A stretch of DNA of 64,000 nucleotides from Enterococcaceae bacterium (GTDB taxonomy: Bacteria > Bacillota > Bacilli > Lactobacillales > Enterococcaceae). The stretch covers positions 186,001 through 250,000 of the forward strand of contig JALCOL010000002.1 in the NCBI GenBank assembly GCA_022649665.1. The letters run 5' to 3'. Within the stretch, counting starts at the first letter, position 1, and each line of letters starts with the position of its first letter. Shown in pieces: positions 21,959 to 43,063 of the stretch. The notes beneath the pieces are model-generated. The model was given only the letters and a program-made list of their open reading frames with translations, ran no database searches and was not told the DNA's origin. Position numbers and translations under genes: made by a program.

Positions 21959-21972
21959 ATAAATAACTAATA

Positions 21973-22328: not shown

Positions 22329-22350
22329 AAAAGAAAGGATAGGTAAAAAT

Positions 22351-22665: not shown

Positions 22666-22680
22666 AGAAAGAGAGGAAAA

Positions 22681-23067
22681 ATGATGAGATTAGCAAATGG
22701 CATTGTATTAGATAAAGACACGACTTTTGGAGAATTGAAATTCTCTGCTCTACGTCGTGAAGTGAGAATCCAAAATGAAGACGGGTCGGTTTCAGATGAA
22801 ATCAAGGAACGTACCTATGACTTAAAATCCAAAGGACAAGGACGCATGATTCAAGTAAGTATTCCTGCCAGCGTGCCTTTGAAAGAGTTTGATTATAACG
22901 CACGGGTGGAACTTATCAATCCCATTGCGGACACCGTTGCTACTGCCACCTATCAAGGAGCAGATGTTGACTGGTATATCAAGGCAGACGATATTGTGCT
23001 GACAAAGGATTCTAGTTCATTCAAAGCTCAACCACAAGCAAAGAAAGAACCGACACAAGACAAATAG
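22681..23067 (+). CDS. orf22: Tn916 Orf22, conjugation-module protein (DUF961)
   Basis: 128 residues, DUF961 family, a paralog of Orf23: both begin with a short strand followed by FGELKF/FGNLEF. It starts 15 bp after orf23 with AGAGGAAA upstream. The C-terminal tail is Lys/Gln-rich. Confidence 0.85.
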   Translation: MMRLANGIVLDKDTTFGELKFSALRREVRIQNEDGSVSDEIKERTYDLKSKGQGRMIQVSIPASVPLKEFDYNARVELINPIADTVATATYQGADVDWYIKADDIVLTKDSSSFKAQPQAKKEPTQDK

Positions 23068-23095
23068 TCGCTAGGTAGAAAGGAGACTTTTTCGC

Positions 23096-24481: not shown

Positions 24482-24658
24482 TCTTGCTGGCTGGTGTGGC
24501 AATAGCCACGCCAGCACTTAACCCCCCGTATCTAACAGGGGGGTACAAATCGACAGGAAACAGTCAAAAAAACATTAGAAAATCCTTTGGTTACAAGGGA
24601 TTTACAAAATTTCAGCGTATGTCAAATGGGCTTTAAAAGTTGACATACGCCTTTTTGA
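24482..24658 (+). other. oriT: Origin of transfer (oriT) of Tn916
   Basis: The gap between orf21 and orf20, where the Tn916 oriT is established. Two inverted repeats are visible. GCTGGTGTGGC (24490-24500) pairs with GCCACGCCAGC (24505-24515). CCCCCC (24522-24527) and GGGGGG (24538-24543) flank GTATCTAACA. A further repeat, GTATGTCAA (24617-24625) with TTGACATAC (24643-24651), precedes orf20 and can form a terminator-like loop. Confidence 0.8.
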
Positions 24659-25864
24659 TTGGAGGGATTTTTACTGAATGAACAAACTTGGTTACAGCAT
24701 TTAAAAGAAAAACGCTTGGCTTATGGACTATCTCAAAACCGTTTAGCTGTTGCGACTGGTATTACAAGGCAGTATCTAAGCGATATTGAAACAGGAAAAG
24801 TCAAGCCATCAGAGGATTTACAGCAGTCCCTTTGGGAAGCTCTGGAACGCTTCAATCCCGACGCTCCCCTTGAAATGCTGTTTGATTATGTAAGGATTCG
24901 CTTTCCGACAACAGACGTACAGCAGGTGGTCGAAAACATCTTACAACTGAAACTGTCCTATTTTCTTCATGAGGACTATGGTTTCTATTCTTATTCAGAG
25001 CATTATGCTTTAGGCGACATATTCGTCCTTTGCTCCCATGAACTGGACAAAGGAGTTCTGGTGGAATTGAAAGGTCGTGGGTGCAGACAATTTGAAAGCT
25101 ATCTTCTGGCACAACAAAGAAGCTGGTATGAGTTCTTTATGGACGTTTTGGTGGCTGGCGGTGTGATGAAACGCCTTGACCTTGCCATTAACGATAAGAC
25201 AGGGATTTTGAATATCCCTGTACTCACTGAAAAGTGCCAACAGGAAGAATGTATCTCCGTCTTCCGCAGTTTTAAAAGCTATCGCAGTGGCGAACTGGTA
25301 CGCAAAGAGGAAAAGGAATGTATGGGAAACACCCTCTATATCGGTTCATTACAAAGTGAAGTTTATTTCTGTATCTATGAAAAGGACTACGAGCAGTACA
25401 AGAAAAATGATATTCCCATTGAAGACGCAGAAGTAAAAAACCGTTTTGAGATTCGATTGAAAAATGAGCGTGCCTATTATGCAGTCCGTGATTTACTCGT
25501 CTATGACAATCCAGAGCATACCGCCTTTAAAATTATCAATCGGTATATCCGTTTTGTAGATAAAGACGATTCCAAACCTCGTTCTGATTGGAAACTGAAT
25601 GAAGAATGGGCTTGGTTTATTGGGAACAATCGTGAACGATTAAAACTAACCACAAAACCAGAGCCTTACTCCTTCCAAAGGACGCTGAACTGGCTATCTC
25701 ATCAAGTTGCCCCGACCTTAAAGGTTGCGATTAAACTTGATGAAATCAACCAGACGCAGGTTGTAAAAGACATTCTCGACCATGCGAAACTGACAGACCG
25801 ACACAAGCAGATTTTGAAGCAACAGTCAGTAAAAGAACAGGACGTGATAACAACAAAAAAATAA
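24659..25864 (+). CDS. orf20: Tn916 Orf20, MobT-type relaxase (Rep_trans family)
   Basis: 401 residues. N-terminal XRE-type helix-turn-helix (LKEKRLAYGLSQNRLAVATGITRQYLSDIETGK), then a replication-initiation-factor domain of the HUH-unrelated Rep_trans type. It nicks oriT to start conjugative transfer and rolling-circle replication of the circular element. The ribosome binding site GGAGGG overlaps the first codons at 24659, so the true start may be slightly downstream. Confidence 0.92.
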   Translation: MEGFLLNEQTWLQHLKEKRLAYGLSQNRLAVATGITRQYLSDIETGKVKPSEDLQQSLWEALERFNPDAPLEMLFDYVRIRFPTTDVQQVVENILQLKLSYFLHEDYGFYSYSEHYALGDIFVLCSHELDKGVLVELKGRGCRQFESYLLAQQRSWYEFFMDVLVAGGVMKRLDLAINDKTGILNIPVLTEKCQQEECISVFRSFKSYRSGELVRKEEKECMGNTLYIGSLQSEVYFCIYEKDYEQYKKNDIPIEDAEVKNRFEIRLKNERAYYAVRDLLVYDNPEHTAFKIINRYIRFVDKDDSKPRSDWKLNEEWAWFIGNNRERLKLTTKPEPYSFQRTLNWLSHQVAPTLKVAIKLDEINQTQVVKDILDHAKLTDRHKQILKQQSVKEQDVITTKK

Positions 25865-25906
25865 CTCAAATACAAATTCATTGAATATAGAGAGGAGAAC
25901 ATTTTT

Positions 25907-26128
25907 ATGAATTTTGGACAAAACCTTTATAACTGGTTTCTATCAAACGCTCAATCACTGGTGCTTTTAGCAATCGTTGTGATTGGCTTGTATCTTGGCT
26001 TCAAGCGTGAGTTTAGCAAACTGATTGGCTTTTTAATTATTGCGATTATTGCGGTTGGCTTAGTCTTCAACGCTGCTGGAGTAAAAGACATTTTACTAGA
26101 GCTATTCAATCGCATTATTGGTGCTTAA
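25907..26128 (+). CDS. orf19: Tn916 Orf19, small membrane protein
   Basis: 73 residues with two hydrophobic helices (~13-32 and ~40-60). Ribosome binding site AGAGGAG. Conserved in Tn916; likely a small component of the mating channel. Function not established from the sequence. Confidence 0.85.
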   Translation: MNFGQNLYNWFLSNAQSLVLLAIVVIGLYLGFKREFSKLIGFLIIAIIAVGLVFNAAGVKDILLELFNRIIGA

Positions 26129-26244
26129 ATAAAACCGTTCTTTTGTGGAATATAAGTGGTTTTCTTATGTTCCGCAAAGGAATGGTACACCAAACGAAGT
26201 GCGGTAGGGATTTTTGAATCTCTACAAAGAAAGGACGTGAATAT

Positions 26245-26742
26245 ATGGACGATATGCAAGTCTATATTGCGAATTTAGGCAAATACAATGAGGGCGAATT
26301 GGTCGGTGCGTGGTTTACCTTTCCCATTGACTTTGAGGAAGTCAAAGAGAAAATCGGCTTGAATGATGAATATGAGGAATACGCCATTCATGACTACGAG
26401 TTACCCTTTACGGTTGACGAATACACTTCCATTGGCGAACTCAATCGACTATGGGAAATGGTATCGGAATTACCCGAAGAATTACAATCGGAGCTATCTG
26501 CTCTGCTCACTCATTTTTCAAGCATTGAAGAACTAAGCGAACATCAAGAGGATATTATCATTCATTCCGATTGTGATGATATGTATGACGTGGCACGCTA
26601 CTACATTGAAGAAACGGGTGCTTTAGGCGAAGTACCAGCTAGTCTTCAAAACTATATTGATTATCAAGCCTATGGTCGGGATTTAGACCTTTCAGGAACG
26701 TTTATCTCAACCAATCATGGGATTTTTGAAATCGTCTATTAA
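26245..26742 (+). CDS. ardA: Antirestriction protein ArdA (Tn916 Orf18)
   Basis: 165 residues, very acidic (many Asp/Glu), the DNA-mimic fold that blocks type I restriction enzymes. It protects incoming single-stranded-then-double-stranded element DNA in a new host. Ribosome binding site AAAGGACG. The C terminus overlaps the orf17 frame by 26 bp. Confidence 0.93.
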   Translation: MDDMQVYIANLGKYNEGELVGAWFTFPIDFEEVKEKIGLNDEYEEYAIHDYELPFTVDEYTSIGELNRLWEMVSELPEELQSELSALLTHFSSIEELSEHQEDIIIHSDCDDMYDVARYYIEETGALGEVPASLQNYIDYQAYGRDLDLSGTFISTNHGIFEIVY

Positions 26743-27223
26743 ATCTGTCGGTACATTACTACTGGCAGATTTTCTATTTTACGGGGTGGCTCAATCAGCT
26801 ACCCCTATTTTTTATGAAAGGATTGATTACATGAAGAAAATACGAAGCTATACCAGTATCTGGTCTGTGGAAAAGGTACTGTATTCTATCAATGATTTTA
26901 GACTTCCGTTTCCCATAACCTTTACGCAAATGACATGGTTTGTCGTGTCACTCTTTGCAGTGATGATACTTGGCAACTTGCCCCCTCTTTCCATGATAGA
27001 GGGAGCATTTCTCAAATACTTTGGGATTCCTGTGGCTTTCACATGGTTTATGTCTACAAAAACTTTTGATGGTAAAAAGCCTTATGGATTTTTGAAGTCT
27101 GTCATTGCTTATGCACTGCGACCAAAGCTGACCTATGCAGGAAAAAAAGTAACGCTTGGCAGAAACCAGCCACAAGAAGCCATTACAGCAGTTAGGAGTG
27201 AATTTTATGGCATATCCAATTAA
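26717..27223 (+). CDS. orf17: Tn916 Orf17, TcpE-family conjugation membrane protein
   Basis: 168 residues in the long form; two adjacent hydrophobic segments at ~76-118, then a Lys-rich tail. TcpE proteins are channel components. The ATG at 26717 lies within ardA. A second ATG at 26831, with GAAAGG 9 nt upstream, gives a 130-residue protein closer to the core domain and may be the real start. The C terminus overlaps orf16 by 17 bp. Confidence 0.85.
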   Translation: MGFLKSSIKSVGTLLLADFLFYGVAQSATPIFYERIDYMKKIRSYTSIWSVEKVLYSINDFRLPFPITFTQMTWFVVSLFAVMILGNLPPLSMIEGAFLKYFGIPVAFTWFMSTKTFDGKKPYGFLKSVIAYALRPKLTYAGKKVTLGRNQPQEAITAVRSEFYGISN

Positions 27224-29654
27224 ATACATTGAAAACAATCTCGTCTGGAATAAAGACGGGGAATGTTATGCTTACTATGAGCTTGTTCCTTACAATTACT
27301 CATTTCTAAGTCCAGAACAGAAAATACAAGTGCATGATTCTTTCAGACAGCTTATCGCACAAAATCGTGATGGCAAAATTCATGCTTTACAAATCAGTAC
27401 AGAATCCAGCATACGTTCTGCACAAGAGCGTTCCAAAAATGAAGTCACTGGCAAGCTCAAAGCGGTTGCCTATGACAAAATCGACCAACAGACAGACGCT
27501 TTAATATCCATGATTGGCGAAAATCAAGTGAACTACCGTTTCTTTATCGGCTTTAAGTTGCTTCTCAACGATCAGGAGTTTTCTATGAAAAGTCTTACCG
27601 TTGAAGCAAAAAATGCTTTGTCTGATTTTGTCTATGATGTGAACCATAAGCTGATGGGCGATTTTGTTAGTATGAGTAATGATGAAATCCTGCGTTTTCA
27701 GAAGATGGAAAAGCTCTTAGAAAATAAAATCTCTCGTCGTTTCAAAATCCGCAGGTTAGATAAGGACGACTTCGGCTATCTGATTGAACACCTTTACGGA
27801 CAGACAGGCACTGCCTATGAAGAGTATGAGTACCATCTATCAAAGAAAAAGCTGGATAATGAAACGCTGATTAAATACTATGACTTGATTAAGCCTACTC
27901 GCTGTTTGGTGGAAGAAAAACAGCGATATTTGAAAATCCAGCAGGAAGATGAAACCGTCTATGTAGCTTACTTTACCATTAACAGCATTGTCGGAGAACT
28001 GGACTTCCCGTCCTCTGAAATCTTCTACTACCAGCAACAGCAATTTACATTCCCGATTGATACGTCAATGAATGTGGAAATTGTAGCGAATCGTAAAGCC
28101 CTATCTACTGTCCGCAATAAAAAGAAAGAACTGAAAGACTTGGATAACCACGCTTGGCAAAGTGATAATGAAACCAGCTCCAATGTGGCGGAAGCTCTGG
28201 AAAGTGTGAATGAGCTGGAAACCAATTTAGACCAAAGCAAGGAATCTATGTACAAGCTGTCTTATGTGGTAAGGGTATCAGCAAATGATCTTGACGAACT
28301 CAAACGTCGTTGTAATGAAGTGAAAGATTTTTATGACGATTTAAGCGTAAAACTGGTACGACCATTTGGGGATATGCTCGGCTTACATGAAGAATTTTTA
28401 CCTGCCAGCAAGCGTTATATGAATGATTATATTCAATACGTGACCTCTGATTTCCTCGCTGGTTTAGGTTTTGGTGCTACTCAAATGCTGGGGGAAAATG
28501 AGGGGATTTATGTTGGCTACAGCTTAGATACTGGACGCAATGTCTATCTGAAACCTGCTCTTGCCAGTCAAGGGGTTAAGGGTTCAGTAACCAATGCGTT
28601 AGCGTCGGCTTTTGTTGGTTCGCTGGGTGGTGGTAAATCCTTTGCGAATAACCTTATCGTCTATTATGCGGTGCTTTATGGGGCACAAGCAGTGATTGTA
28701 GACCCAAAAGCAGAACGTGGCAGATGGAAAGAAACCTTGCCAGAGATTTCCCATGAAATCAATATCGTCACTCTGACTTCTGATGAGAAAAACAAAGGCT
28801 TACTTGACCCTTATGTGATTATGAAAAATCCCAAAGATTCTGAATCACTGGCTATTGATATTCTGACATTCCTTACGGGGATTTCCTCTCGTGATGGGGA
28901 ACGCTTCCCAATCCTTAGAAAAGCCATTCGTGCAGTAACCAATAGTGAAGTACGAGGGTTGATGAAAGTGATTGAGGAATTACGGGTTGAGAATACGCCA
29001 CTAAGTACCAGTATAGCCGACCATATCGAAAGTTTTACAGACTATGACTTTGCACATTTATTATTCAGTAATGGTTATGTGGAGCAGTCTATCAGCTTAG
29101 AAAAACAACTGAACATTATACAGGTTGCGGACTTGGTACTTCCCGACAAGGAAACTTCCTTTGAGGAATATACCACTATGGAGCTTTTATCCGTTGCTAT
29201 GCTGATTGTCATTAGTACCTTTGCTTTAGACTTTATCCATACAGACCGAAGCATTTTCAAGATTGTAGATTTAGACGAAGCATGGAGCTTTTTACAGGTA
29301 GCACAAGGAAAAACACTATCTATGAAGCTGGTTCGGGCTGGTCGTGCTATGAACGCTGGGGTATATTTCGTGACCCAAAATACAGACGACCTCTTAGATG
29401 AAAAACTGAAAAATAACCTCGGCTTAAAATTTGCATTTCGTTCCACTGACCTTAACGAGATTAAAAAGACCTTAGCCTTTTTTGGTGTAGACCCAGAGGA
29501 CGAAAACAATCAGAAGCGATTGCGTGATTTGGAAAACGGGCAATGCCTTATCAGTGATTTATATGGTCGTGTCGGTGTGATACAGTTCCACCCTGTATTT
29601 GAAGAACTGCTCCATGCCTTTGATACCAGACCACCTGTGCGAAAAGAGGTGTAA
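27207..29654 (+). CDS. orf16: Tn916 Orf16, VirB4-like conjugation ATPase
   Basis: 815 residues from ATG 27207 (AGGAGTG upstream; the longer frame from 27156 lies inside orf17). Walker A GSLGGGKS near residue 473 and Walker B in KIVDLDEAW near 690. Energises the type IV-like mating channel; equivalent to ConE of ICEBs1. Confidence 0.93.
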   Translation: MAYPIKYIENNLVWNKDGECYAYYELVPYNYSFLSPEQKIQVHDSFRQLIAQNRDGKIHALQISTESSIRSAQERSKNEVTGKLKAVAYDKIDQQTDALISMIGENQVNYRFFIGFKLLLNDQEFSMKSLTVEAKNALSDFVYDVNHKLMGDFVSMSNDEILRFQKMEKLLENKISRRFKIRRLDKDDFGYLIEHLYGQTGTAYEEYEYHLSKKKLDNETLIKYYDLIKPTRCLVEEKQRYLKIQQEDETVYVAYFTINSIVGELDFPSSEIFYYQQQQFTFPIDTSMNVEIVANRKALSTVRNKKKELKDLDNHAWQSDNETSSNVAEALESVNELETNLDQSKESMYKLSYVVRVSANDLDELKRRCNEVKDFYDDLSVKLVRPFGDMLGLHEEFLPASKRYMNDYIQYVTSDFLAGLGFGATQMLGENEGIYVGYSLDTGRNVYLKPALASQGVKGSVTNALASAFVGSLGGGKSFANNLIVYYAVLYGAQAVIVDPKAERGRWKETLPEISHEINIVTLTSDEKNKGLLDPYVIMKNPKDSESLAIDILTFLTGISSRDGERFPILRKAIRAVTNSEVRGLMKVIEELRVENTPLSTSIADHIESFTDYDFAHLLFSNGYVEQSISLEKQLNIIQVADLVLPDKETSFEEYTTMELLSVAMLIVISTFALDFIHTDRSIFKIVDLDEAWSFLQVAQGKTLSMKLVRAGRAMNAGVYFVTQNTDDLLDEKLKNNLGLKFAFRSTDLNEIKKTLAFFGVDPEDENNQKRLRDLENGQCLISDLYGRVGVIQFHPVFEELLHAFDTRPPVRKEV

Positions 29655-29656
29655 AT

Positions 29657-31834
29657 GTGAAACCATCAATAGTAAACAGAATAAAATCAAACTGGACGCT
29701 GAAACGTCTAGGTAAAGTGGCAATGACAGTGGCTTTCACACTTGTGATTGCCATTTTTCTTTTAGCCATGCTGGGAACGGTGGTTCAAGCTGCGGGCTTG
29801 GTAGATGATACGGTCAATGTGGCAAATGAATACAGCCGATACCCACTTGAAAACTATCAACTGGATTTTTATGTGGATAATAGCTGGGGCTGGCTTCCGT
29901 GGAACTGGTCGGACGGGATTGGAAAACAGGTCATGTATGGACTATATGCCATTACCAATTTTATTTGGACAATCAGTTTGTATGTTTCCAATGCGACAGG
30001 TTACTTAGTACAGGAAGCCTATTCCTTAGACTTCATTTCCGCTACAGCAGATTCCATTGGTAAGAATATGCAGACCTTAGCTGGTGTGAGTGCAAACGGA
30101 TTTTCAACAGAGGGTTTCTATGTTGGATTCCTCTTACTCTTGATTTTGGTTCTTGGGGTTTATGTTGCCTATACGGGACTGATAAAGAGAGAAACCACAA
30201 AGGCAATTCATGCCATTATGAATTTTGTGCTGGTGTTTATCCTATCGGCTTCCTTTATTGCCTACGCTCCCGACTACATTAAAAAAATCAATGACTTTTC
30301 ATCAGACATCAGTAATGCCAGTTTATCACTTGGCACGAAGATTGTCATGCCCCATTCCGATAGTCAAGGCAAGGACAGCGTGGACTTAATCAGAGATAGC
30401 CTGTTTTCCATACAGGTTCAGCAACCGTGGCTACTGCTTCAATACAACAGTTCAGACATTGAAAGTATCGGTATTGACCGTGTGGAAAGCCTGCTCTCCA
30501 CCAGCCCAGATTCCAACAATGGCGAAGACAGAGAAAAAATTGTTGCGGAAGAAATTGAAGACAGAAGCAATACCAATCTAACCATTACAAAGACCATTAA
30601 CCGTTTAGGTACAGTCTTCTTCCTATTTGTCTTCAATATTGGGATTTCCATATTTGTATTCCTATTAACAGGAATCATGATTTTCTCGCAGGTACTTTTT
30701 ATCATCTATGCTATGTTTCTGCCTGTGAGCTTTATTTTAAGCATGATTCCATCATTTGATGGTATGTCAAAACGAGCCATAACAAAGCTCTTTAATACCA
30801 TTTTGACACGAGCTGGAATCACATTGATTATTACGACAGCATTTAGTATTTCAACCATGCTCTATACCTTATCGGCTGGTTATCCGTTCTTTTTGATTGC
30901 TTTTCTACAGATTGTGACCTTTGCAGGAATCTACTTCAAGCTGGGCGATTTAATGAGTATGTTTTCTCTACAGAGTAACGATTCTCAAAGTGTGGGAAGT
31001 CGTGTGATGAGAAAACCTCGTATGCTTATGCACGCTCACATGCACCGTCTACAGCGGAAACTTGGACGTTCCATGACTACTCTAGGGGCTGGGTCTGCCA
31101 TTGTTACAGGTAAAAAAGGACAGTCGGGTTCGGGGAGTTCTGCAAGGACACAAGCAGATCACTCCCGACCAGACGGAAAGGAAAAATCAACACTTGGAAA
31201 ACGTATCGGTCAAACCATCGGTACAGTAGCTGATACCAAAGACAGAATGGTAGACACTGCTAGTGGTTTGAAAGAACAGGTTAAAGATTTGCCGACCAAT
31301 GCAAGATATGCAGTATATCAAGGAAAATCCAAAGTAAAAGAGAATGTCCGTGATTTAACCAGTAGTATTTCTCAAACCAAAGCGGACAGAGCCAGTGGAC
31401 GCAAGGAACAGCAGGAACAAAGGCGAAAAACCATTGCGAAGCGTCGCTCTGAAATGGAACAGGTCAAACAGAAAAAACAGCCTGCTTCTTCTGTTCATGA
31501 AAGACCGACTACAAGACAAGAACAATATCATGATGAACAGACCTCAAAACAGTCTAATATTCAGACTTCATATAAGGAATCTCAACAAGCCAAACAAGAG
31601 CGTCCAGCAGTTAAGTCCGATTTTTCAAGTCCAAAAGTGGAACGCCAAGGCAATACCGTTCAAGAAAAAACCGTTCAAAAGCCAGCAACTTCAACCACTA
31701 CAGCAGATAGAACTTCACAACGTCCAATCACAAAAGAACGTCCGTCTACTGTTCAAAGAGTACCACTACAAAATACAAGAAGTAGACCACCAATCAAAAC
31801 CGCCACCATTAAGAAAGTCGGTAAGAAACCATGA
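29657..31834 (+). CDS. orf15: Tn916 Orf15, large conjugation membrane protein (VirB6-like)
   Basis: 725 residues, GTG start 2 bp after orf16. Signal-like N terminus and several membrane helices up to ~residue 435, then a long polar, Gln/Lys/Ser-rich tail (about 270 residues) of low complexity. Equivalent to ConG of ICEBs1; forms the membrane pore. The stop overlaps the orf14 start. Confidence 0.92.
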   Translation: MKPSIVNRIKSNWTLKRLGKVAMTVAFTLVIAIFLLAMLGTVVQAAGLVDDTVNVANEYSRYPLENYQLDFYVDNSWGWLPWNWSDGIGKQVMYGLYAITNFIWTISLYVSNATGYLVQEAYSLDFISATADSIGKNMQTLAGVSANGFSTEGFYVGFLLLLILVLGVYVAYTGLIKRETTKAIHAIMNFVLVFILSASFIAYAPDYIKKINDFSSDISNASLSLGTKIVMPHSDSQGKDSVDLIRDSLFSIQVQQPWLLLQYNSSDIESIGIDRVESLLSTSPDSNNGEDREKIVAEEIEDRSNTNLTITKTINRLGTVFFLFVFNIGISIFVFLLTGIMIFSQVLFIIYAMFLPVSFILSMIPSFDGMSKRAITKLFNTILTRAGITLIITTAFSISTMLYTLSAGYPFFLIAFLQIVTFAGIYFKLGDLMSMFSLQSNDSQSVGSRVMRKPRMLMHAHMHRLQRKLGRSMTTLGAGSAIVTGKKGQSGSGSSARTQADHSRPDGKEKSTLGKRIGQTIGTVADTKDRMVDTASGLKEQVKDLPTNARYAVYQGKSKVKENVRDLTSSISQTKADRASGRKEQQEQRRKTIAKRRSEMEQVKQKKQPASSVHERPTTRQEQYHDEQTSKQSNIQTSYKESQQAKQERPAVKSDFSSPKVERQGNTVQEKTVQKPATSTTTADRTSQRPITKERPSTVQRVPLQNTRSRPPIKTATIKKVGKKP

Positions 31835-32832
31835 AGTTGAAAACTTTAGTGATTGGTGGTTCTGGATTATTCTTGATGGTCTTCTCACTGCTTCTGTTTG
31901 TTGCCATTTTATTTTCAGATGAACAGGACAGCGGAATTTCCAATATTCATTATGGAGGTGTGAATGTTTCCGCAGAAGTGCTGGCTCATAAGCCTATGGT
32001 AGAAAAATATGCCAAAGAATATGGCGTTGAAGAATATGTCAACATACTTCTTGCGATTATACAGGTGGAATCGGGCGGTACTGCGGAAGATGTTATGCAG
32101 TCCTCGGAATCCCTCGGTCTTCCACCTAATTCATTGAGTATAGAAGAATCCATTAAGCAAGGTGTGAAGTATTTCAGTGAATTATTAGCCAGTAGCGAAA
32201 GGCTCAGTGTAGATTTAGAATCGGTTATCCAGTCCTACAATTATGGTGGTGGTTTCTTAGGGTATGTGGCTAATCGTGGAAATAAATATACCTTTGAACT
32301 GGCTCAAAGTTTCTCAAAAGAGTATTCAGGTGGCGAAAAAGTGTCTTACCCCAATCCCATAGCCATACCTATCAATGGGGGCTGGCGATACAACTATGGC
32401 AATATGTTTTATGTGCAACTGGTAACGCAGTATCTTGTCACAACAGAGTTTGATGATGATACGGTACAAGCCATCATGGACGAAGCACTGAAATATGAGG
32501 GCTGGCGATACGTTTACGGTGGAGCTTCCCCGACTACTTCTTTTGATTGTAGCGGACTGACACAATGGACGTATGGAAAAGCTGGAATTAACTTACCACG
32601 AACCGCACAACAGCAATATGATGTGACCCAGCATATCCCACTATCGGAAGCACAAGCTGGCGATTTGGTTTTCTTTCATTCTACCTATAACGCTGGCTCT
32701 TATATTACTCATGTTGGGATATACCTTGGCAATAACCGTATGTTTCATGCAGGCGACCCAATCGGTTATGCCGACTTAACAAGCCCCTACTGGCAACAGC
32801 ATTTAGTGGGAGCAGGACGAATCAAACAATGA
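31831..32832 (+). CDS. orf14: Tn916 Orf14, bifunctional cell-wall hydrolase (CwlT-like)
   Basis: 333 residues. N-terminal membrane anchor, a muramidase/transglycosylase-type domain (~50-180), then an NlpC/P60 endopeptidase domain with Cys in FDCSGLTQW and His in THVGIYLG. Opens peptidoglycan for the mating channel. Overlaps orf15 by 4 bp (ATGA) and orf13 at its end. Confidence 0.94.
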   Translation: MKLKTLVIGGSGLFLMVFSLLLFVAILFSDEQDSGISNIHYGGVNVSAEVLAHKPMVEKYAKEYGVEEYVNILLAIIQVESGGTAEDVMQSSESLGLPPNSLSIEESIKQGVKYFSELLASSERLSVDLESVIQSYNYGGGFLGYVANRGNKYTFELAQSFSKEYSGGEKVSYPNPIAIPINGGWRYNYGNMFYVQLVTQYLVTTEFDDDTVQAIMDEALKYEGWRYVYGGASPTTSFDCSGLTQWTYGKAGINLPRTAQQQYDVTQHIPLSEAQAGDLVFFHSTYNAGSYITHVGIYLGNNRMFHAGDPIGYADLTSPYWQQHLVGAGRIKQ

Positions 32833-32846
32833 GAAAGGAAGATTTA

Positions 32847-33764
32847 ATGATGAAATTTAGAAAAAATCAGAATAAAGAAAAACAGATACCAAAGGAAAAG
32901 AAACCTCGTGTCTACTATAAGGTCAATCCTCATAAAAAGGTTGTGATTGCCTTGTGGGTACTTTTAGGGCTTAGTTTCAGCTTTGCGATATTCAAGCACT
33001 TTACAGCTATAGATACTCATACTATTCACGAAACAACTATCATAGAAAAGGAATACGTTGATACTCATCATGTAGAAAATTTTGTAGAGAACTTTGCGAA
33101 AGTCTACTATTCATGGGAGCAATCCGATAAGTCCATTGATAATCGAATGGAAAGTCTAAAAGGCTATCTGACAGATGAACTTCAAGCTCTCAATGTTGAT
33201 ACAGTACGCAAAGATATTCCTGTATCGTCTTCTGTAAGAGGATTTCAGATATGGACGGTAGAGCCAACTGGCGACAATGAGTTTAATGTAACCTACAGTG
33301 TAGACCAGCTCATTACAGAGGGAGAAAATACAAAGACCGTCCACTCTGCTTATATAGTGAGTGTCTATGTAGATGGTTCTGGAAATATGGTACTGGTTAA
33401 GAATCCGACCATTACCAACATACCTAAGAAATCAAGTTATAAACCAAAAGCCATTGAAAGTGAGGGGACGGTTGATTCCATTACAACCAATGAAATCAAT
33501 GAGTTTTTAACGACGTTCTTCAAGCTCTATCCTACAGCGACAGCCAGTGAACTTTCCTACTATGTGAATGACGGGATATTAAAACCAATCGGAAAAGAGT
33601 ACATCTTTCAAGAACTGGTAAATCCTATTCACAATCGTAAGGATAATCAAGTCACGGTATCGCTGACAGTGGAGTATATCGACCAGCAGACCAAAGCAAC
33701 GCAGGTATCTCAATTTGATTTGGTACTTGAAAAGAACGGGAGTAATTGGAAGATTATAGAATAA
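32847..33764 (+). CDS. orf13: Tn916 Orf13, VirB8-like conjugation protein (TcpC)
   Basis: 305 residues from ATG 32847; GAAAGGAAG upstream sets this start rather than the ATG at 32829. One membrane helix (~31-55) and two NTF2-like domains outside, the layout of TcpC/ConC. Last gene of the transfer module. Confidence 0.9.
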   Translation: MMKFRKNQNKEKQIPKEKKPRVYYKVNPHKKVVIALWVLLGLSFSFAIFKHFTAIDTHTIHETTIIEKEYVDTHHVENFVENFAKVYYSWEQSDKSIDNRMESLKGYLTDELQALNVDTVRKDIPVSSSVRGFQIWTVEPTGDNEFNVTYSVDQLITEGENTKTVHSAYIVSVYVDGSGNMVLVKNPTITNIPKKSSYKPKAIESEGTVDSITTNEINEFLTTFFKLYPTATASELSYYVNDGILKPIGKEYIFQELVNPIHNRKDNQVTVSLTVEYIDQQTKATQVSQFDLVLEKNGSNWKIIE

Positions 33765-33833
33765 CAAATATTGGTACATTATTACAGCTATTTTGTAATC
33801 ACGTACTCTCTTTGATAAAAAATTGGAGATTCC

Positions 33834-33862
33834 TTTACAAATATGCTCTTACGTGCTATTAT
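33834..33862 (+). promoter_or_regulatory. tet(M) promoter
   Basis: TTTACA (33834-33839), 17-nt spacer, TATTAT (33857-33862). It drives the attenuated tet(M) leader; read-through beyond tet(M) also feeds the downstream regulatory genes and, in the circular form, the transfer genes. Confidence 0.75.
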
Positions 33863-33893
33863 TTAAGTGACTATTTAAAAGGAGTTAATAAAT

Positions 33894-34125
33894 ATGCGGC
33901 AAGGTATTCTTAAATAAACTGTCAATTTGATAGCGGGAACAAATAATTAGATGTCCTTTTTTAGGAGGGCTTAGTTTTTTGTACCCAGTTTAAGAATACC
34001 TTTATCATGTGATTCTAAAGTATCCAGAGAATATCTGTATGCTTTGTATACCTATGGTTATGCATAAAAATCCCAGTGATAAAAGTATTTATCACTGGGA
34101 TTTTTATGCCCTTTTGGGTTTTTGA
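33894..34125 (+). promoter_or_regulatory. tet(M) leader with two short ORFs and attenuator
   Basis: A 7-codon ORF (33894-33917, MRQGILK) follows the ribosome binding site AAAGGAG. GGTATTCTTAAA near 33903 can pair with TTTAAGAATACC near 33988. Leader orf12 occupies 34039-34125. A 21-bp hairpin (34063-34083 with 34088-34108) with a T-rich arm lies inside orf12 and is the attenuator. In the known Tn916 model, ribosome behaviour on orf12 under tetracycline lets polymerase pass this hairpin. Confidence 0.85.
34039..34125 (+). CDS. orf12: tet(M) leader peptide (Tn916 Orf12)
   Basis: 28 codons, MLCIPMVMHKNPSDK.., differing from the usual Tn916 peptide as I recall it by Ile for Met at codon 4. Its stop (34123-34125) directly precedes the tet(M) ribosome binding site. 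Its codons overlap the terminator hairpin, so translation controls read-through. Confidence 0.8.
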   Translation: MLCIPMVMHKNPSDKSIYHWDFYALLGF

Positions 34126-34140
34126 ATGGAGGAAAATCAC

Positions 34141-36060
34141 ATGAAAATTATTAATATTGGAGTTTTAGCTCATGTTGATGCAGGAAAAACTACCTTAACA
34201 GAAAGCTTATTATATAACAGTGGAGCGATTACAGAATTAGGAAGCGTGGACAAAGGTACAACGAGGACGGATAATACGCTTTTAGAACGTCAGAGAGGAA
34301 TTACAATTCAGACAGGAATAACCTCTTTTCAGTGGGAAAATACGAAGGTGAACATCATAGACACGCCAGGACATATGGATTTCTTAGCAGAAGTATATCG
34401 TTCATTATCAGTTTTAGATGGGGCAATTCTACTGATTTCTGCAAAAGATGGCGTACAAGCACAAACTCGTATATTATTTCATGCACTTAGGAAAATGGGG
34501 ATTCCCACAATCTTTTTTATCAATAAGATTGACCAAAATGGAATTGATTTATCAACGGTTTATCAGGATATTAAAGAGAAACTTTCTGCCGAAATTGTAA
34601 TCAAACAGAAGGTAGAACTGTATCCTAATATGTGTGTGACGAACTTTACCGAATCTGAACAATGGGATACGGTAATAGAGGGAAACGATGACCTTTTAGA
34701 GAAATATATGTCCGGTAAATCATTAGAAGCATTGGAACTCGAACAAGAGGAAAGCATAAGATTTCAGAATTGTTCTCTGTTCCCTCTTTATCATGGAAGT
34801 GCAAAAAGTAATATAGGGATTGATAACCTTATAGAAGTTATTACTAATAAATTTTATTCATCAACACATCGAGGTCCGTCTGAACTTTGCGGAAATGTTT
34901 TCAAAATTGAATATACAAAAAAAAGACAACGTCTTGCATATATACGCCTTTATAGTGGAGTACTACATTTACGAGATTCGGTTAGAGTATCAGAAAAAGA
35001 AAAAATAAAAGTTACAGAAATGTATACTTCAATAAATGGTGAATTATGTAAGATTGATAGAGCTTATTCTGGAGAAATTGTTATTTTGCAAAATGAGTTT
35101 TTGAAGTTAAATAGTGTTCTTGGAGATACAAAACTATTGCCACAGAGAAAAAAGATTGAAAATCCGCACCCTCTACTACAAACAACTGTTGAACCGAGTA
35201 AACCTGAACAGAGAGAAATGTTGCTTGATGCCCTTTTGGAAATCTCAGATAGTGATCCGCTTCTACGATATTACGTGGATTCTACGACACATGAAATTAT
35301 ACTTTCTTTCTTAGGGAAAGTACAAATGGAAGTGATTAGTGCACTGTTGCAAGAAAAGTATCATGTGGAGATAGAACTAAAAGAGCCTACAGTCATTTAT
35401 ATGGAGAGACCGTTAAAAAATGCAGAATATACCATTCACATCGAAGTGCCGCCAAATCCTTTCTGGGCTTCCATTGGTTTATCTGTATCACCGCTTCCGT
35501 TGGGAAGTGGAATGCAGTATGAGAGCTCGGTTTCTCTTGGATACTTAAATCAATCATTTCAAAATGCAGTTATGGAAGGGATACGCTATGGTTGCGAACA
35601 AGGATTATATGGTTGGAATGTGACGGATTGTAAAATCTGTTTTAAGTACGGTTTATACTATAGCCCTGTTAGTACTCCAGCAGATTTTCGGATGCTTGCT
35701 CCTATTGTATTGGAACAAGTCTTAAAAAAAGCTGGAACAGAATTGTTAGAGCCATATCTTAGTTTTAAAATTTATGCGCCACAGGAATATCTTTCACGAG
35801 CATACAACGATGCTCCTAAATATTGTGCGAACATCGTAGACACTCAATTGAAAAATAATGAGGTCATTCTTAGTGGAGAAATCCCTGCTCGGTGTATTCA
35901 AGAATATCGTAGTGATTTAACTTTCTTTACAAATGGACGTAGTGTTTGTTTAACAGAGTTAAAAGGGTACCATGTTACTACCGGTGAACCTGTTTGCCAG
36001 CCCCGTCGTCCAAATAGTCGGATAGATAAAGTACGATATATGTTCAATAAAATAACTTAG
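34141..36060 (+). CDS. tet(M): Tetracycline resistance ribosomal protection protein Tet(M)
   Basis: 639 residues, the exact family length. EF-G-like GTPase: G1 AHVDAGKTT, switch [11 protein letters not shown]4 NKID. It binds the ribosome and releases tetracycline. The ATG at 34141 has GGAGG at proper spacing; the ATG at 34126 contains that site and is not the start. Protein sequence is the classical Tn916 Tet(M) as far as I can recognise. Confidence 0.98.
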
Positions 36061-36160
36061 TGTATTTTATGTTGTTATATAAATATGGTTTCTTGTTAAA
36101 TAAGATGAAATATTTTTTAATAAAGATTTGAATTAAAGTGTAAAGGAGGAGATAGTTATT

Positions 36161-36346
36161 ATAAACTACAAGTGGATATTGTGTCCTGTATGTGGAAATA
36201 AAACACGATTAAAGATAAGGGAAGATACTGAATTAAAAAAATTCCCCCTCTATTGTCCGAAATGCAGACAAGAAAATTTAATTGAAATAAAGCAGTTCAA
36301 AGTAACTGTGATTACAGAGCCAGACGCAAAGACGCAGAGCCGATAA
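36161..36346 (+). CDS. orf6: Cysteine-rich KTR protein (Tn916 Orf6), non-ATG start
   Basis: 61 codons, NYKWILCPVCGNKTRL.., with two CxxC pairs (CPVC, CPKC), a zinc-ribbon-like pattern, ending in DAKTQSR. The frame has no ATG, GTG or TTG at its front: the ribosome binding site AAAGGAGGA is followed by ATT (36158) and ATA (36161). Initiation at one of these weak codons, or silence, must be assumed. Function unknown. Confidence 0.65.
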   Translation: MNYKWILCPVCGNKTRLKIREDTELKKFPLYCPKCRQENLIEIKQFKVTVITEPDAKTQSR

Positions 36347-36380
36347 AATGAGATTAATACAATCTCATTTTATCGGCTCT
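36336..36380. terminator. Bidirectional terminator between orf6 and orf9
   Basis: A perfect 20-bp stem (36336-36355 with 36361-36380), core GCCGATAAAATGAGATT, loop AATAC. It limits read-through from tet(M) and ends the convergent orf9. Confidence 0.88.
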
Positions 36381-36405
36381 TTCCGTTATGTATGGATTCT
36401 TTTAA

Positions 36406-36759
36406 TTAGTCTTCGATGTTTCTTGCTTCGTTGATACCGCTGGCTAAAGATTCCATTAAGGATAGTTCTTTGTCTGTAAAGCTATCCATGTATTTCTCTA
36501 TCTGTAATCGTCGGGTGCTTTTTACCAAGTTATTAGCAGGTAAGAAAAATTCATCAACGGAAACATGAAGTAACGATACAAGGTCATAAAGAACTTGTAT
36601 GCTGGGGTGTTGCCCTTTATTTTCAATATTAGTTAAGTACCGTGGGTCAATTTCAATCAATGCTCCCACTTGTTCACGAGTTAAACCTCGTTTCAATCGA
36701 GCTTCTTTAATGGCTAAACCAAAGGCTCTAAAATCATATTTATCTTCTTTTTTACGCAT
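36406..36759 (-). CDS. orf9: Tn916 Orf9, XRE-family regulator
   Basis: 117 residues with an N-terminal helix-turn-helix ([33 protein letters not shown]). In the published Tn916 model it opposes expression of orf7/orf8. Transcribed against tet(M) read-through, so antisense regulation is expected. Its promoter lies in the AT-rich gap before it. Confidence 0.9.
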
Positions 36760-37263
36760 AGTAGACCACCTCTATACATTTTATTGTTCCTACTGAATTA
36801 AAAACAGGTATAGAAAAACGTGTTATATGGTTTATAGGTTTATATTTAATAAAAAGCACTACTAAACGCCAATAAAAAAAACCGTTATATGGTAGTGCTA
36901 TTTACGCTGTTAAAATATTGTATATTACTTCCAAATGGCGGTTTGTTGGAGGTCAACGTCGCCATGAAGTACATCATATACAATAAATTTCCTTACATTG
37001 GGTTCTTGTCAAAAAAAGTCGTCTATCTGCAATAGATAAGTACGTCCACCAATGTGGTTTTATAAATCATATAGATAGAATAACAGAAGCATGTAAACAG
37101 AGAAATAAATCTGTTTATATGCTTTTTTGGCTATTCAGAACTTTTTTACAAAGTTTATTTATCAGTAATGCAACAAATCCCCCTTTCACATTGGGACTAA
37201 GAGTGAAAGGAGATAAACGAGCAAGGCTCACTTCCTTTCCTAGACAGAAAGGGGGTGAGAAAC
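36760..37263. promoter_or_regulatory. Divergent control region orf9 / orf7
   Basis: About 500 bp. It holds a terminator-type hairpin, AAGCATGTAAACAGA (37087-37101) with TCTGTTTATATGCTTT (37110-37125), followed by T residues. An open frame at 37119-37307 (62 codons) begins inside that hairpin and is doubtful. The ribosome binding site GGGGTGAG precedes orf7. This is where the Tn916 promoters of orf9 and orf7 lie; I do not assign exact boxes. Confidence 0.5.
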
Positions 37264-37686
37264 ATGAAACCATCTTCTTTTCAGACCACAATAGAAAATC
37301 AGTTTGACTATATCTGTAAACGTGCTATGGAAGACGAGCGAAAGAATTATATGCTTTATCTTTCAAGGATTGCAAAGCGTGAGGTGTCCTTTTCGGATGT
37401 TGGCGATTATCTTGTTAGCCAGTTTGCGACAACAGATAACTATTCAACTGACTTTCAGATTTTTACACTCAATGGGTTATCAGTAGGCGTTGAAAATGAT
37501 TTGTTGAGTGAAGCATTACGTGAGTTGCCAGACAAGAAACGTGAAATTCTACTGCTGTTTTACTTTATGGACATGAGCGATTCAGAAATTGCAGACCTGT
37601 TGAAATTGAACCGTTCTACTGTCTATCGGCATAGAACCAGTGGACTAGCCTTAATTAAAAAGTTTATGGAGGAATTTGAAGAATGA
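37264..37686 (+). CDS. orf7: Tn916 Orf7, sigma-factor-like activator
   Basis: 140 residues from ATG 37264 (GGGGTGAG upstream). C-terminal sigma-70 region 4-like helix-turn-helix (ELPDKKREILLLFYFMDMSDSEIADLLKLNRSTVYRHR). Activates excision and transfer gene transcription in the known model. Stop overlaps orf8 start by 4 bp. Confidence 0.92.
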   Translation: MKPSSFQTTIENQFDYICKRAMEDERKNYMLYLSRIAKREVSFSDVGDYLVSQFATTDNYSTDFQIFTLNGLSVGVENDLLSEALRELPDKKREILLLFYFMDMSDSEIADLLKLNRSTVYRHRTSGLALIKKFMEEFEE

Positions 37687-37913
37687 AAACACAATATCCT
37701 ATGATTCCCTTTCCTCTCATTGTAAAGGCAACAGATGGCGATACCGAAGCGATTAACCAGATTCTACATCATTACAGAGGGTACATAACGAAGCGTTCCC
37801 TACGACTTATGAAAGATGAATATGGCAATCAAAGTATGGTCGTTGATGAAGTCTTACGTGGAAGAATGGAAACCAGACTGATTACAAAGATTTTGTCATT
37901 TGAAATTAAGTAA
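37683..37913 (+). CDS. orf8: Tn916 Orf8, helix-turn-helix co-regulator
   Basis: 76 residues of the HTH_16 type that accompanies Orf7. The gene overlaps orf7 (ATGA), so the two products are coupled. Role: positive control of transfer genes together with Orf7. Confidence 0.88.
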   Translation: MKTQYPMIPFPLIVKATDGDTEAINQILHHYRGYITKRSLRLMKDEYGNQSMVVDEVLRGRMETRLITKILSFEIK

Positions 37914-38373
37914 TATCCTCTCTCCTTTCGTGGAAGCGTGCTAAACCATTCCACGCTTCCCGAACAGGGAGGTTTGTTATTCCACCAAAGCATATTGAGC
38001 TTTCAATGTGTTTTGATAGGCTAACGAGCCATTGTTCTTTGAAAACTGAATAAAAGTAATCGAATACGTTTCGATAAGAAAAGAGCCAACGGAACTAACC
38101 GCCATGACCTATCTTATAAAGATAGCGAGCGATTCATGTTAGTGATCCGAGAAGCAATCTTTAGCAGGATTGCCTGCAACGACATTCTTATCGTGATAAT
38201 GATACTCCCATACAGTCAATAGTCCGAGCGTGATAAAACCGTCGCAGGCAATGAGTATGGCTACATGAGAACCATGCAGGGGTGGAACTCCCGTGAGCTT
38301 TGCTAAAGCTGTTCGATTGCTGGTAAAACAACTTTTATGAAATCCAAATAAGTGATTTGGAAAGGAGGATTTT
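37914..38373 (+). promoter_or_regulatory. Structured leader between orf8 and xis
   Basis: About 460 bp with no credible ORF. Several repeats can fold: GGAAGCGTG..CACGCTTCC near 37930-37960, CTATCTTATAAAGATAG near 38109-38125, GCAATC..GATTGC near 38153-38170. The TTCTTTGAAAACTGAATA stretch (38037-38054) resembles rRNA-spacer-type sequence. The xis ribosome binding site AAAGGAGG ends the region. A long regulated 5' RNA for xis-int is likely. Confidence 0.5.
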
Positions 38374-38577
38374 ATGAAGCAGACTGACATTCCTATTTGG
38401 GAACGTTATACCCTAACCATTGAAGAAGCGTCAAAATATTTTCGTATTGGCGAAAACAAGCTACGACGCTTGGCAGAGGAAAATAAAAATGCAAATTGGC
38501 TGATTATGAATGGCAATCGTATTCAGATTAAACGAAAACAATTTGAAAAAATTATAGATACATTGGACGCAATCTAG
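38374..38577 (+). CDS. xis: Excisionase Xis of Tn916
   Basis: 67 residues, winged-helix excisionase fold ([25 protein letters not shown]). Bends the ends for Int-mediated excision. Ribosome binding site AAAGGAGG. int follows after 81 bp. Confidence 0.95.
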
Positions 38578-38658
38578 CGTCGCCAAAGGGTCTTGTATAT
38601 GATAAAATAGTATTAAGTCGTATCAAGGCTCTTTCCATAAAGGAAAGGAGCAAATGCC

Positions 38659-39876
38659 ATGTCAGAAAAAAGACGTGACAATAAAGGTCGAATCTTAAAG
38701 ACTGGAGAGAGCCAACGAAAAGACGGAAGATACTTATACAAATATATAGATTCATTTGGAGAACCGCAATTTGTTTACTCGTGGAAACTTGTGGCTACAG
38801 ACCGAGTACCAGCAGGAAAGCGTGATTGTATCTCACTTAGAGAGAAAATCGCAGAGTTACAGAAAGACATTCATGATGGTATTGATGTTGTAGGAAAGAA
38901 AATGACACTCTGCCAGCTTTACGCAAAACAGAACGCTCAAAGACCAAAGGTTAGAAAAAACACTGAAACTGGACGCAAATATCTTATGGATATTTTGAAG
39001 AAAGACAAGTTAGGTGTAAGAAGTATTGACAGTATTAAGCCATCAGACGCTAAAGAATGGGCTATTAGAATGAGTGAAAATGGTTATGCTTATCAAACCA
39101 TCAATAACTACAAACGTTCTTTAAAGGCTTCATTCTATATTGCTATACAAGATGATTGTGTTCGGAAGAATCCATTTGACTTTCAACTGAAAGCAGTTCT
39201 TGATGATGATACTGTCCCTAAGACCGTACTAACAGAAGAACAGGAAGAAAAACTGTTAGCCTTTGCAAAAGCTGATAAAACCTACAGCAAAAATTATGAT
39301 GAAATTCTGATACTCTTAAAAACAGGTCTTCGTATTTCAGAGTTTGGTGGTTTGACACTTCCAGATTTAGATTTTGAGAATCGTCTTGTCAATATAGACC
39401 ATCAGCTATTGAGAGATACTGAAATTGGGTACTACATTGAAACACCAAAGACCAAAAGTGGCGAACGTCAAGTTCCTATGGTTGAAGAAGCCTATCAAGC
39501 ATTTAAGCGAGTGTTAGCGAATCGAAAGAATGATAAGCGTGTTGAGATTGATGGATATAGTGATTTCCTCTTTCTTAATAGAAAGAACTATCCAAAAGTG
39601 GCAAGTGATTACAACGGCATGATGAAAGGTCTTGTTAAGAAATACAATAAGTATAACGAGGATAAATTGCCACACATCACTCCACATAGTTTGCGACATA
39701 CATTCTGTACCAACTATGCAAATGCAGGAATGAATCCAAAGGCATTACAGTACATTATGGGACATGCTAATATAGCCATGACGCTGAACTATTACGCACA
39801 TGCAACATTCGATTCTGCAATGGCAGAAATGAAACGCTTGAATAAAGAGAAGCAACAGGAGCGTCTTGTTGCTTAG
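38659..39876 (+). CDS. int: Tn916 integrase, tyrosine recombinase
   Basis: 405 residues. An N-terminal arm-binding domain, a core-binding domain, and a catalytic domain with Arg (GLRISEFGG), HSLRHTFCT, GHANIAMTLNYY and nucleophile Tyr379. It cuts with 6-bp overlaps at the two ends and does not need homology at the target. The arm sites it would bind are seen at both ends of the element. Confidence 0.97.
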   Translation: MSEKRRDNKGRILKTGESQRKDGRYLYKYIDSFGEPQFVYSWKLVATDRVPAGKRDCISLREKIAELQKDIHDGIDVVGKKMTLCQLYAKQNAQRPKVRKNTETGRKYLMDILKKDKLGVRSIDSIKPSDAKEWAIRMSENGYAYQTINNYKRSLKASFYIAIQDDCVRKNPFDFQLKAVLDDDTVPKTVLTEEQEEKLLAFAKADKTYSKNYDEILILLKTGLRISEFGGLTLPDLDFENRLVNIDHQLLRDTEIGYYIETPKTKSGERQVPMVEEAYQAFKRVLANRKNDKRVEIDGYSDFLFLNRKNYPKVASDYNGMMKGLVKKYNKYNEDKLPHITPHSLRHTFCTNYANAGMNPKALQYIMGHANIAMTLNYYAHATFDSAMAEMKRLNKEKQQERLVA

Positions 39877-40187
39877 TAGTACAAATGAATTTACTACTTA
39901 TTTACCACTTCTGACAGCTAAGACATGAGGAAATATGCAAAGAAACGTGAAGTATCTTCCTACAGTAAAAATACTCGAAAGCACATAGAATAAGGCTTTA
40001 CGAGCATTTAAGAAAATATAAAAAGATAATTAGAAATTTATACTTTGTTTATGATAAAAAAAAGAGTGATTAAAAGCTTATACTGGTATTAGTGATAGAA
40101 GACTGTATCAAAATTTCATCCCTTGCCATTTTCGGCTGCGTTCCTTACACTTGGAATAGCAACGGCATTTAAAAGGGAGGAACTGAA
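39877..40187 (+). other. Right end of Tn916 and chromosomal junction
   Basis: The Int arm repeats TTTACTACT / TTTACCACT lie at 39890-39910. The terminal repeat TGATAAAAAAAA ends near 40064. Chromosomal DNA from there carries the ribosome binding site AGGGAGG of the Mga-like gene. No gene is seen in these 310 bp. Confidence 0.75.
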
Positions 40188-41711: not shown

Positions 41712-41713
41712 CT

Positions 41714-43063
41714 ATGAAAACGATCATTGTTGGAGGTTCGCACGGCGGGGTCGCAGCAGCGAAAACGTTAAAAGTGCTTGCGCCGGACATGGAAGTATTG
41801 CTGATCGAAAAAAGCCGAATGATCAGCTATGTATCGAGCAGCATCAACCTTTACTTTGAAAAATATTTGTCCGATCTTTCACAGGGACATCTGAATGATC
41901 CTGAAACGCTGGAAGACATGGGTATTCGAGTATTGACGGAGCACTGCGCCAGTAAAATCGATTGCGAGAAACAGCAAGTTTTTTATTATAAAGTGCATCA
42001 AAAAGAGAATATCCTCGTGGAGTCCTATGACTATTTGATCCTTGCGATGGGCTCAAGCCCGTTCAACACTGACATGAATGATCAAGAGCTGGAAAATATC
42101 TTGACGTATAAGTCCTTTGAAGAGTCGCGGATCGCCCTGCAAAAAATCCAAGAGGCGCAAAAGATCACGATCGTCGGTGCGGGATATATCGGTTTAGAGC
42201 TTTCAAGTGCGCTGAAAAGTGAAAAAAAAGACCTGCAAGTCGTCGATATGCTGGATGCCCCGCTTTTCCGGTATCTGGATAGTGAGCTGACCAAGCATTT
42301 GCTGGATCATCAGCCGCCATATGTCCATCTGTACTTGAATAGTACGGTCACCGGCTTTAGCGGCAATGACGGCAAGGTCACAAAGACCATCCTGATGGAC
42401 CGCGAGCTGGAAAATGATCTTGTGATCTTTGCGATCAATGGCCGGCCGAACAGTGAATTATTGCAAGATGAGATCAAACTGAATTATGACGGGACAGTTG
42501 CCGTGAATGCTTTTTTGCAGACAAGCGATCCAAAAGTCTATGCGATCGGCGACATGATCAGTACCGCGATCGGTGACGACAATTATACGTATATCACGCT
42601 GGTTTCCAATGCACTGATGACAGGGCGCATCGCGGCGGAAAATATTTGCTTTGACAACCGGATCCCATTCGAGCAGGCGAATCAGACAACGATTTCTAAG
42701 ATCTGGGGTATCTATATCGGAACGAGCGGATTGACCGAAGAGCTGGCACCTTTTTATAATTATGATCCGGTCGGGTTCACCAGGAAATTTTACGACCACG
42801 CCTTTGAAAAAGATTATAAAGAGATCGAAGTCAAACTGGTGTTTGATCGCACGAGCACGCGTCTGATCGGCGGCCAATTTTTAGCATCTTTTCAGAATTT
42901 TGATTTGATCAATTTGATCTCGCTGATGATCTCGCAAAAGATGACGCCGACCGATATTTTGACAAGTGATTTTTTCTACAATGCTCACGTTTCTTCTTAT
43001 GAAAATTATATTGCCGATATCGCAACGAACGCTTTGCAATATTTTTTTAAAGAAAAAGTCTAA
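41714..43063 (+). CDS. NADH oxidase/peroxidase-like flavoprotein lacking the redox cysteine
   Basis: 449 residues, class III pyridine nucleotide-disulfide family (Nox/Npr/CoADR). FAD motif VGGSHGG with conserved His10, NAD motif VGAGYIGLELSSAL, second FAD stretch VYAIGD. In Nox and Npr the redox Cys42 sits in SFLSCG; here it reads SYVSSS, with Ser at 42. Without it the enzyme cannot form the Cys-sulfenic state, so classical peroxidase or water-forming oxidase activity is not expected. H2O2-forming oxidase, another reductase activity, or a sensory role are possible. Paired with the Mga-like gene. Confidence 0.85.
   Translation: MKTIIVGGSHGGVAAAKTLKVLAPDMEVLLIEKSRMISYVSSSINLYFEKYLSDLSQGHLNDPETLEDMGIRVLTEHCASKIDCEKQQVFYYKVHQKENILVESYDYLILAMGSSPFNTDMNDQELENILTYKSFEESRIALQKIQEAQKITIVGAGYIGLELSSALKSEKKDLQVVDMLDAPLFRYLDSELTKHLLDHQPPYVHLYLNSTVTGFSGNDGKVTKTILMDRELENDLVIFAINGRPNSELLQDEIKLNYDGTVAVNAFLQTSDPKVYAIGDMISTAIGDDNYTYITLVSNALMTGRIAAENICFDNRIPFEQANQTTISKIWGIYIGTSGLTEELAPFYNYDPVGFTRKFYDHAFEKDYKEIEVKLVFDRTSTRLIGGQFLASFQNFDLINLISLMISQKMTPTDILTSDFFYNAHVSSYENYIADIATNALQYFFKEKV

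Follow-up and report, generated by a model that had tools for sequence, protein, structure and literature searches.

The window, by which we mean the whole 64,000-nucleotide stretch of DNA that was analysed, comes from a 2.37-Mb draft genome that is the only member of its genus in our comparison set. It carries a gene for an Mga-like transcription regulator that is followed almost immediately by a gene for a flavoprotein related to NADH peroxidase (Npr) and NADH oxidase (Nox). The coordinates of the two genes and of the features around them are collected in Table 1.

Table 1. Features of the flavoprotein-regulator locus, in window positions
Feature	Position	Strand	Basis or remark
Tn916-type element with tet(M)-like gene	22006..40051	+	Enterococcal plasmids carry copies with 99.9% identity; the match reaches 40066 in some alignments
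Mga-like regulator (AcpB/EbpR/MafR subfamily), 507 aa	40188..41711	+	Profiles; whole-chain fold match to MgaSpn/MafR/AtxA
Gap of 2 bp between regulator stop and flavoprotein start	41712..41713	+	Sequence
Cys42-less NADH peroxidase/oxidase-like FAD/NAD(H) flavoprotein, 449 aa	41714..43063	+	ORF, profiles, AlphaFold2 model
Ser42 codon, AGC	41837..41839	+	Aligned to redox Cys42 of enterococcal NADH peroxidase
C_GCAxxG_C_C putative redox protein	43155-43640		Directly after the pair
SLAC1-family transporter	43633-44565		After the C_GCAxxG_C_C gene

The flavoprotein, its regulator and their surroundings

The flavoprotein has the N-terminus MKTIIVGGSHGG and contains the motif SYVSSS. A sequence-only reading of this DNA had proposed that SYVSSS stands in place of SFLSCG, with Ser42 for the redox Cys42, and alignment to enterococcal NADH peroxidase confirms this. 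The same reading held that His10 and both dinucleotide folds are kept, which is borne out at the motif level: the 449-residue open reading frame has His10, the GD motif and both glycine motifs for dinucleotide binding. Pfam assigns a Pyr_redox_2 domain and a dimerisation domain. When the single sequence is searched against solved relatives, structures of enterococcal NADH peroxidase come out on top, with 1nhq (Ser42) narrowly first; when a family profile is used, 3oc4, an oxidoreductase of E. faecalis V583, ranks first. An AlphaFold2 model (pLDDT 82.5) matches LbNOX with a Z score of 43.8 (rmsd 2.2, 440 residues aligned), Npr with a Z score of about 42, 3oc4 with 40.3, and ferredoxin and rubredoxin reductase structures with about 34-36. 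By fold and sequence, the flavoprotein belongs to the group formed by NADH peroxidase, NADH oxidase and CoA-disulfide reductase (CoADR). It resembles Npr (PDB 1nhp-1nhs, 1npx; about 29% identity) in fold, length, FAD and NAD(H) motifs and His10, but differs from it in Ser42 and in having a regulator gene alongside. It shares its fold with water-forming Nox (PDB 5vn0, 2bc0) and CoA-disulfide reductase, but lacks Cys42 and falls far below the cut-offs of the NCBIfam equivalogs for H2O-forming NADH oxidase (243.9 vs 600) and CoA-disulfide reductase (218.8 vs 578.8).

The Mga-like regulator that had been placed 2 bp upstream is upheld by matches to both Pfam and NCBIfam: the product of ORF 40188-41711 scores 74 bits against the Pfam Mga HTH domain (cut-off 21.1) and 161.5 bits against the NCBIfam AcpB/EbpR/MafR subfamily (cut-off 130). 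An AAGGAGG-like ribosome-binding site can be read from the sequence within the regulator gene, at its 3' end. The AlphaFold2 model of the regulator (pLDDT 85.9) matches MgaSpn (5way), MafR and AtxA over the whole chain with Z scores of 24.4, 22.4 and 20.2, respectively, at 6-14 A rmsd; taken as separate domains, its matches to the PRD of 1tlv (Z 7.0, 10.8 A) and the EIIB domain of 1vkr (Z 7.8) are both weak. The predicted fold is that of an HTH, PRD and EIIB-like protein. The regulator is therefore like AcpB, EbpR, MafR, Mga and AtxA (the PCVRs) in passing the subfamily cut-off and in its whole-chain fold match, but it differs from them in having a flavoprotein partner and in grouping with the regulators of other such pairs.

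The signals to which the Mga/AtxA/MafR family responds are described in passages of PMC8560693 as poorly understood, and direct phosphorylation by the PTS as debated. We examined the positions of the PTS histidines in 79 partner regulators. The equivalent of AtxA H199 is His in 5/79, the window regulator among them, and the equivalent of AtxA H379 is His in 0/79, with a His two columns off in 12/79. Mga-like proteins that have no flavoprotein partner mostly lack these histidines also (2/22 have them, and 5/22 have one two columns off), so we dropped the idea that the missing histidines prove that the flavoprotein has replaced the PTS. In the PRD2-like region, the column at residue 336 of the window regulator, where the window protein has Asn, is His in 65/79 partner regulators and is possibly a functional site.

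The Tn916-type element ends 121-136 bp before the start codon of the regulator. It is context that lies outside the flavoprotein-regulator module, and by inserting there it may have cut the two genes off from their native promoter. We considered the C_GCAxxG_C_C and SLAC1-type genes as conserved members of the module and rejected them, since a similar ORF is absent from the pooled comparison loci. The same genome holds a second pair (L054, G000:C4:180119-197453), in which the gene of an Asn42 flavoprotein overlaps by 4 bp that of a separate Mga-like regulator, as well as three Cys42 homologues from whose examined flanks a regulator is absent. It also holds a solitary regulator of the partner subfamily (L228, G000:C1 near 21539-22987), which is followed by two genes for WxL-domain surface proteins.

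Co-occurrence of Cys42 loss and an Mga-like neighbour

A scan of genome contigs with the single protein returned no relative, and a profile scan recovered them. A family-level search (E<=1e-85) gave matches in 25/105 genomes and 8/17 genera, the window genome counted. Ser42 is present in 24/24 of the family relatives found, and in 22/24 the regulator immediately precedes the flavoprotein on the same strand. At L053 it is divergent, and L041 sits at a contig end where the end of a regulator was recovered by a later profile. For a wider comparison, we pooled these 24 relatives with the 80 best named contigs, 71 further loci from an order-level search, five more from the window genome, and the window locus, giving 181 loci and 172 distinct flavoproteins. 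The 71 loci of the order-level search were drawn from part of the matches listed and include a single second g14 copy, L190, from a set scoring about 366-391 bits.

Cys42 is replaced by Ser, Asn, Gly or Asp in 85/172 homologues, and an Mga-like gene adjoins 85/85 of these. None of the 86 homologues with Cys42 has such a neighbour in the flanks examined, whose length varies between close to zero and 6 kb, and in a few of these rows a neighbour could go unseen; the remaining homologue of the 172 is cut at residue 42 and was left unclassed. The Mga-like gene is upstream on the same strand in 40 of the 85 pairs, divergent in 14 and downstream on the same strand in 31. Same-strand pairs overlap or mostly lie within 17 bp of each other, and divergent pairs are 91-167 bp apart. 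The 24 loci from a class-level search all have Cys42 and no regulator within 1.5 kb. Since the 85 Cys-less rows were collected by similarity to the window clade, distant Cys-less proteins are under-sampled. In five of the 85 pairs (L031, L039, L044, L182, L196), the regulator next to the flavoprotein is split into two ORF pieces, through a frameshift, sequencing error or decay. A tblastn search of plasmids for the pair gave best matches of about 30% identity or less. The pairing with an Mga-like gene that had been noticed in the window is kept in the relatives examined, at 85/85 Cys42-less against 0/86 Cys42 homologues, and the coincidence of Ser42 with an Mga-like neighbour is more than chance.

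Two less biased checks were made. In the first, a census of homologues at E<=1e-20 in 10 genomes gave 47 places. None of the 31 Cys42 places has a regulator and, broken frames aside, 13 of 14 Cys-less places do; 11 of these 13 pairs were already among the 85. The other places without a regulator are three, L336, L355 and L358. L336 is a broken, Npr-like frame and L355 a broken, CoADR-like frame whose N-terminal piece has Cys42 (genomes G019 and G302). L358/L359 (G019:C45:10451-11653) encodes a 25%-identical homologue with no Cys at position 42, and an Mga-like gene is absent from the 17 kb examined around it, which makes it the sole Cys-less case without a regulator among the places examined. 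In a 53-row tree it is nearest to the Cys-less rows, on a long branch whose placement is unsure. We count it as a true exception, possibly a Cys-less member from which the regulator has been lost.

The second check started from the regulator in eight genomes, and 41 loci were read (11 of the 19 matches of one search and 30 loci of another). Fifteen of the 41 fall in the partner subfamily, and 10 of these adjoin a Cys-less flavoprotein, including two new pairs (L275, Asn42; L291, Ser42) whose flavoproteins group with the Cys-less rows. The other five have no flavoprotein in the flanks examined; therefore, the regulator can exist alone.

Phylogeny, conservation and neighbouring operons

In a 171-row flavoprotein tree (IQ-TREE, quick mode), a single branch with an SH-aLRT of 99 splits the Cys-less rows from the Cys42 rows. 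The window protein lies in the Cys-less clade and not among the Cys42 enzymes. Given this placement and Ser42 in all 24 family relatives, we reject a lone strain-specific mutation. The divergent and downstream gene orders each form one clade. Since the Cys-less set is one clade, it represents one inherited association and not 85 independent events; the history is one of a single ancestral pairing surviving rearrangement through three gene orders. In the regulator tree, the partners group with five solitary regulators (84 rows, SH-aLRT 93, not starred), and the downstream order is again one clade. The distance matrices of the partners correlate across 79 pairs (Pearson 0.948, a value reached in 0/1000 shuffles; Spearman 0.504), a correlation that is partly due to species descent.

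The flavoprotein is under purifying selection, with dN/dS values of 0.03-0.14 in 13 close pairs, in several of which dS exceeds 1. Residues G7, G12, G113, G155, G157, G160 and D280 are invariant in 85/85 Cys-less rows, and no internal stops were reported among the Cys-less rows listed. Position 242 is Asn in 75/85 Cys-less rows, which also sets this clade apart from Npr, and Gly in 86/86 Cys42 rows. His10 is kept in 54/85, the rows with the upstream or divergent gene order; in the downstream clade, Phe (28) or Tyr (3) takes its place in all 31 members. With its cofactor motifs kept and its thiol, and in one clade its histidine too, lost, the protein looks like a sensor or carrier and not a peroxidase.

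The downstream clade contains a protein of solved structure. PDB 3oc4 belongs to the same Cys-less group as the window protein and has Gly42; a near-identical gene, L207 (genome G001), has its Mga-like partner directly downstream. PDB 3oc4 differs from the window protein in having Phe10 for His10, and the pair in having the reversed gene order and in standing before glpK-glpO-glpF. We considered whether the partner of 3oc4 is MafR itself and rejected this, as the L207 regulator scores only 26 bits against 3sqn. The usual order in this clade is flavoprotein, regulator, glpK, glpO and, in most cases, glpF: glpK and glpO follow the pair in 12/12 loci with long flanks, and glpF does so in 10/12. 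A thirteenth glp locus, L316, was recovered via its regulator and has all three genes. Across the whole downstream clade, glpK is visible in 22/31 loci, the other nine spanning only about 1 kb past the regulator. At L300 and L319 a gene on the opposite strand lies between the regulator and glpK, and at L308-L312 the presence of the glp genes was scored while their order was read in part. In L301, the one locus checked by profile, the flavoprotein is near-identical to 3oc4 and the three genes encode a glycerol kinase, a type 1 glycerol-3-phosphate oxidase and an aquaporin-family channel.

Other neighbours accompany the upstream gene order. A common cluster is shared by six upstream-type loci and, in L314, encodes a WxL-interacting protein, and 11 upstream-type loci share genes that, in L032, are of the FecCD iron-transport type. 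Judging from position, the candidate target operons would be glpK-glpO(-glpF) in one clade and WxL surface or iron-uptake genes elsewhere. The glpK-glpO(-glpF) operon is that of the H2O2-forming glycerol-3-phosphate oxidase. The related MafR is reported to affect glp genes in E. faecalis (PMC4707282), in passages that deal with MafR and not with the partner regulator.

Possible functions of the pair

We propose, with about even confidence, that the Cys-less relative of NADH peroxidase senses redox state through FAD/NAD(H) for a partner regulator of the AcpB/EbpR/MafR type, and that the two form a redox-signalling module. The flavoprotein keeps its FAD and NAD(H) sites, at the motif level, and lacks the peroxidatic Cys42, without which the sulfenic-acid cycle should not run. 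The redox or occupancy state of the flavin/NAD(H) site would instead be passed to the co-encoded Mga-like (PRD-type) regulator, probably by direct contact, and the regulator would then gate transcription of a neighbouring operon. In the glp clade, the gated operon would be the one for the H2O2-forming oxidase, glpK-glpO(-glpF), and elsewhere it may be the WxL surface or iron-uptake genes. A known arrangement of this kind is NifL-NifA, in which a flavoprotein redox sensor is encoded with, and gates, a transcription activator, but NifL, a PAS/kinase-like protein, comes from a different family. We found no paper on the flavoprotein-regulator pair in the open-licence literature searched, and a term search of the main text of the PCVR review found no mention of NADH, flavo-, oxidoreductase or redox.

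The main rival of the redox-sensor reading is that the flavoprotein still works as an enzyme, perhaps as an NADH oxidase that forms H2O2 by direct reaction of its flavin with O2, and that the regulator only controls its expression together with that of other genes. Loss of Cys42 is known to turn a water-forming oxidase into an H2O2 former, and the intact FAD and NAD(H) motifs in 85/85 rows and the purifying selection count in favour of this rival. In PMC5293585, the C42A mutant of an archaeal Nox had less than 10% of the activity, so that loss of the cysteine may leave the enzyme partly active. To judge by their titles, there are also solved structures of Npr with C42S and of Nox with C44S. 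However, the glp clade has lost His10 as well (Phe 28, Tyr 3 of 31), the retention of a regulator through three gene orders would exceed what an ordinary enzyme needs, and a Cys-less flavoprotein without a regulator was seen only once among the places examined. We consider an active enzyme rather unlikely. Adjacency would also be expected of a flavoprotein that is no more than a regulatory target, and genomics alone cannot separate co-regulation from contact.

Ferredoxin and rubredoxin reductases also work without the active Cys, and their structures match the model at the Z scores of about 34-36 given above, which would suit a flavoprotein that passes electrons from NADH to some other protein, with the regulator matching supply to need. 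The closest relatives are nevertheless Nox, Npr and CoADR and not ferredoxin reductases, and we noticed no common electron-carrier neighbour among the neighbours scanned, which vary by clade. This role seems improbable to us. That the flavoprotein is a functionless, decaying paralogue hitchhiking with the regulator might be suspected from its lost catalytic residues, but the dN/dS of 0.03-0.14 in 13 pairs, the invariant cofactor motifs and the lack of an internal stop among the Cys-less rows listed leave this strongly disfavoured, with very little probability. Among the three functions that the sequence-only reading had offered, namely H2O2 formation, use of another electron acceptor or sensing for the regulator, that of a sensor appears to fit the genomic evidence best because of the dependence on the regulator gene, the glpKO context and the additional loss of His10 in one clade; the other two keep some probability.

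A bolder form of the redox-sensor reading, which we hold tentatively and as somewhat less probable than the general one, is that a peroxidase-like FAD/NAD(H) protein lacking its cysteine, a relative of an H2O2-removing enzyme, serves as the input subunit of a PRD-type regulator, in a Lactobacillales module that stands beside different operons, glpKOF among them, and would decide when the H2O2-producing glycerol pathway is on. If the redox-sensor reading is true, the flavoprotein partner is a concrete and testable input for part of the Mga/AtxA/MafR family, and the E. faecalis pair offers both a solved partner structure (3oc4, whose title gives it no name) and a plausible target operon, glpKOF. 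The pair would then be a clear case in which an enzyme family, by losing its catalytic residue, has produced a sensor.
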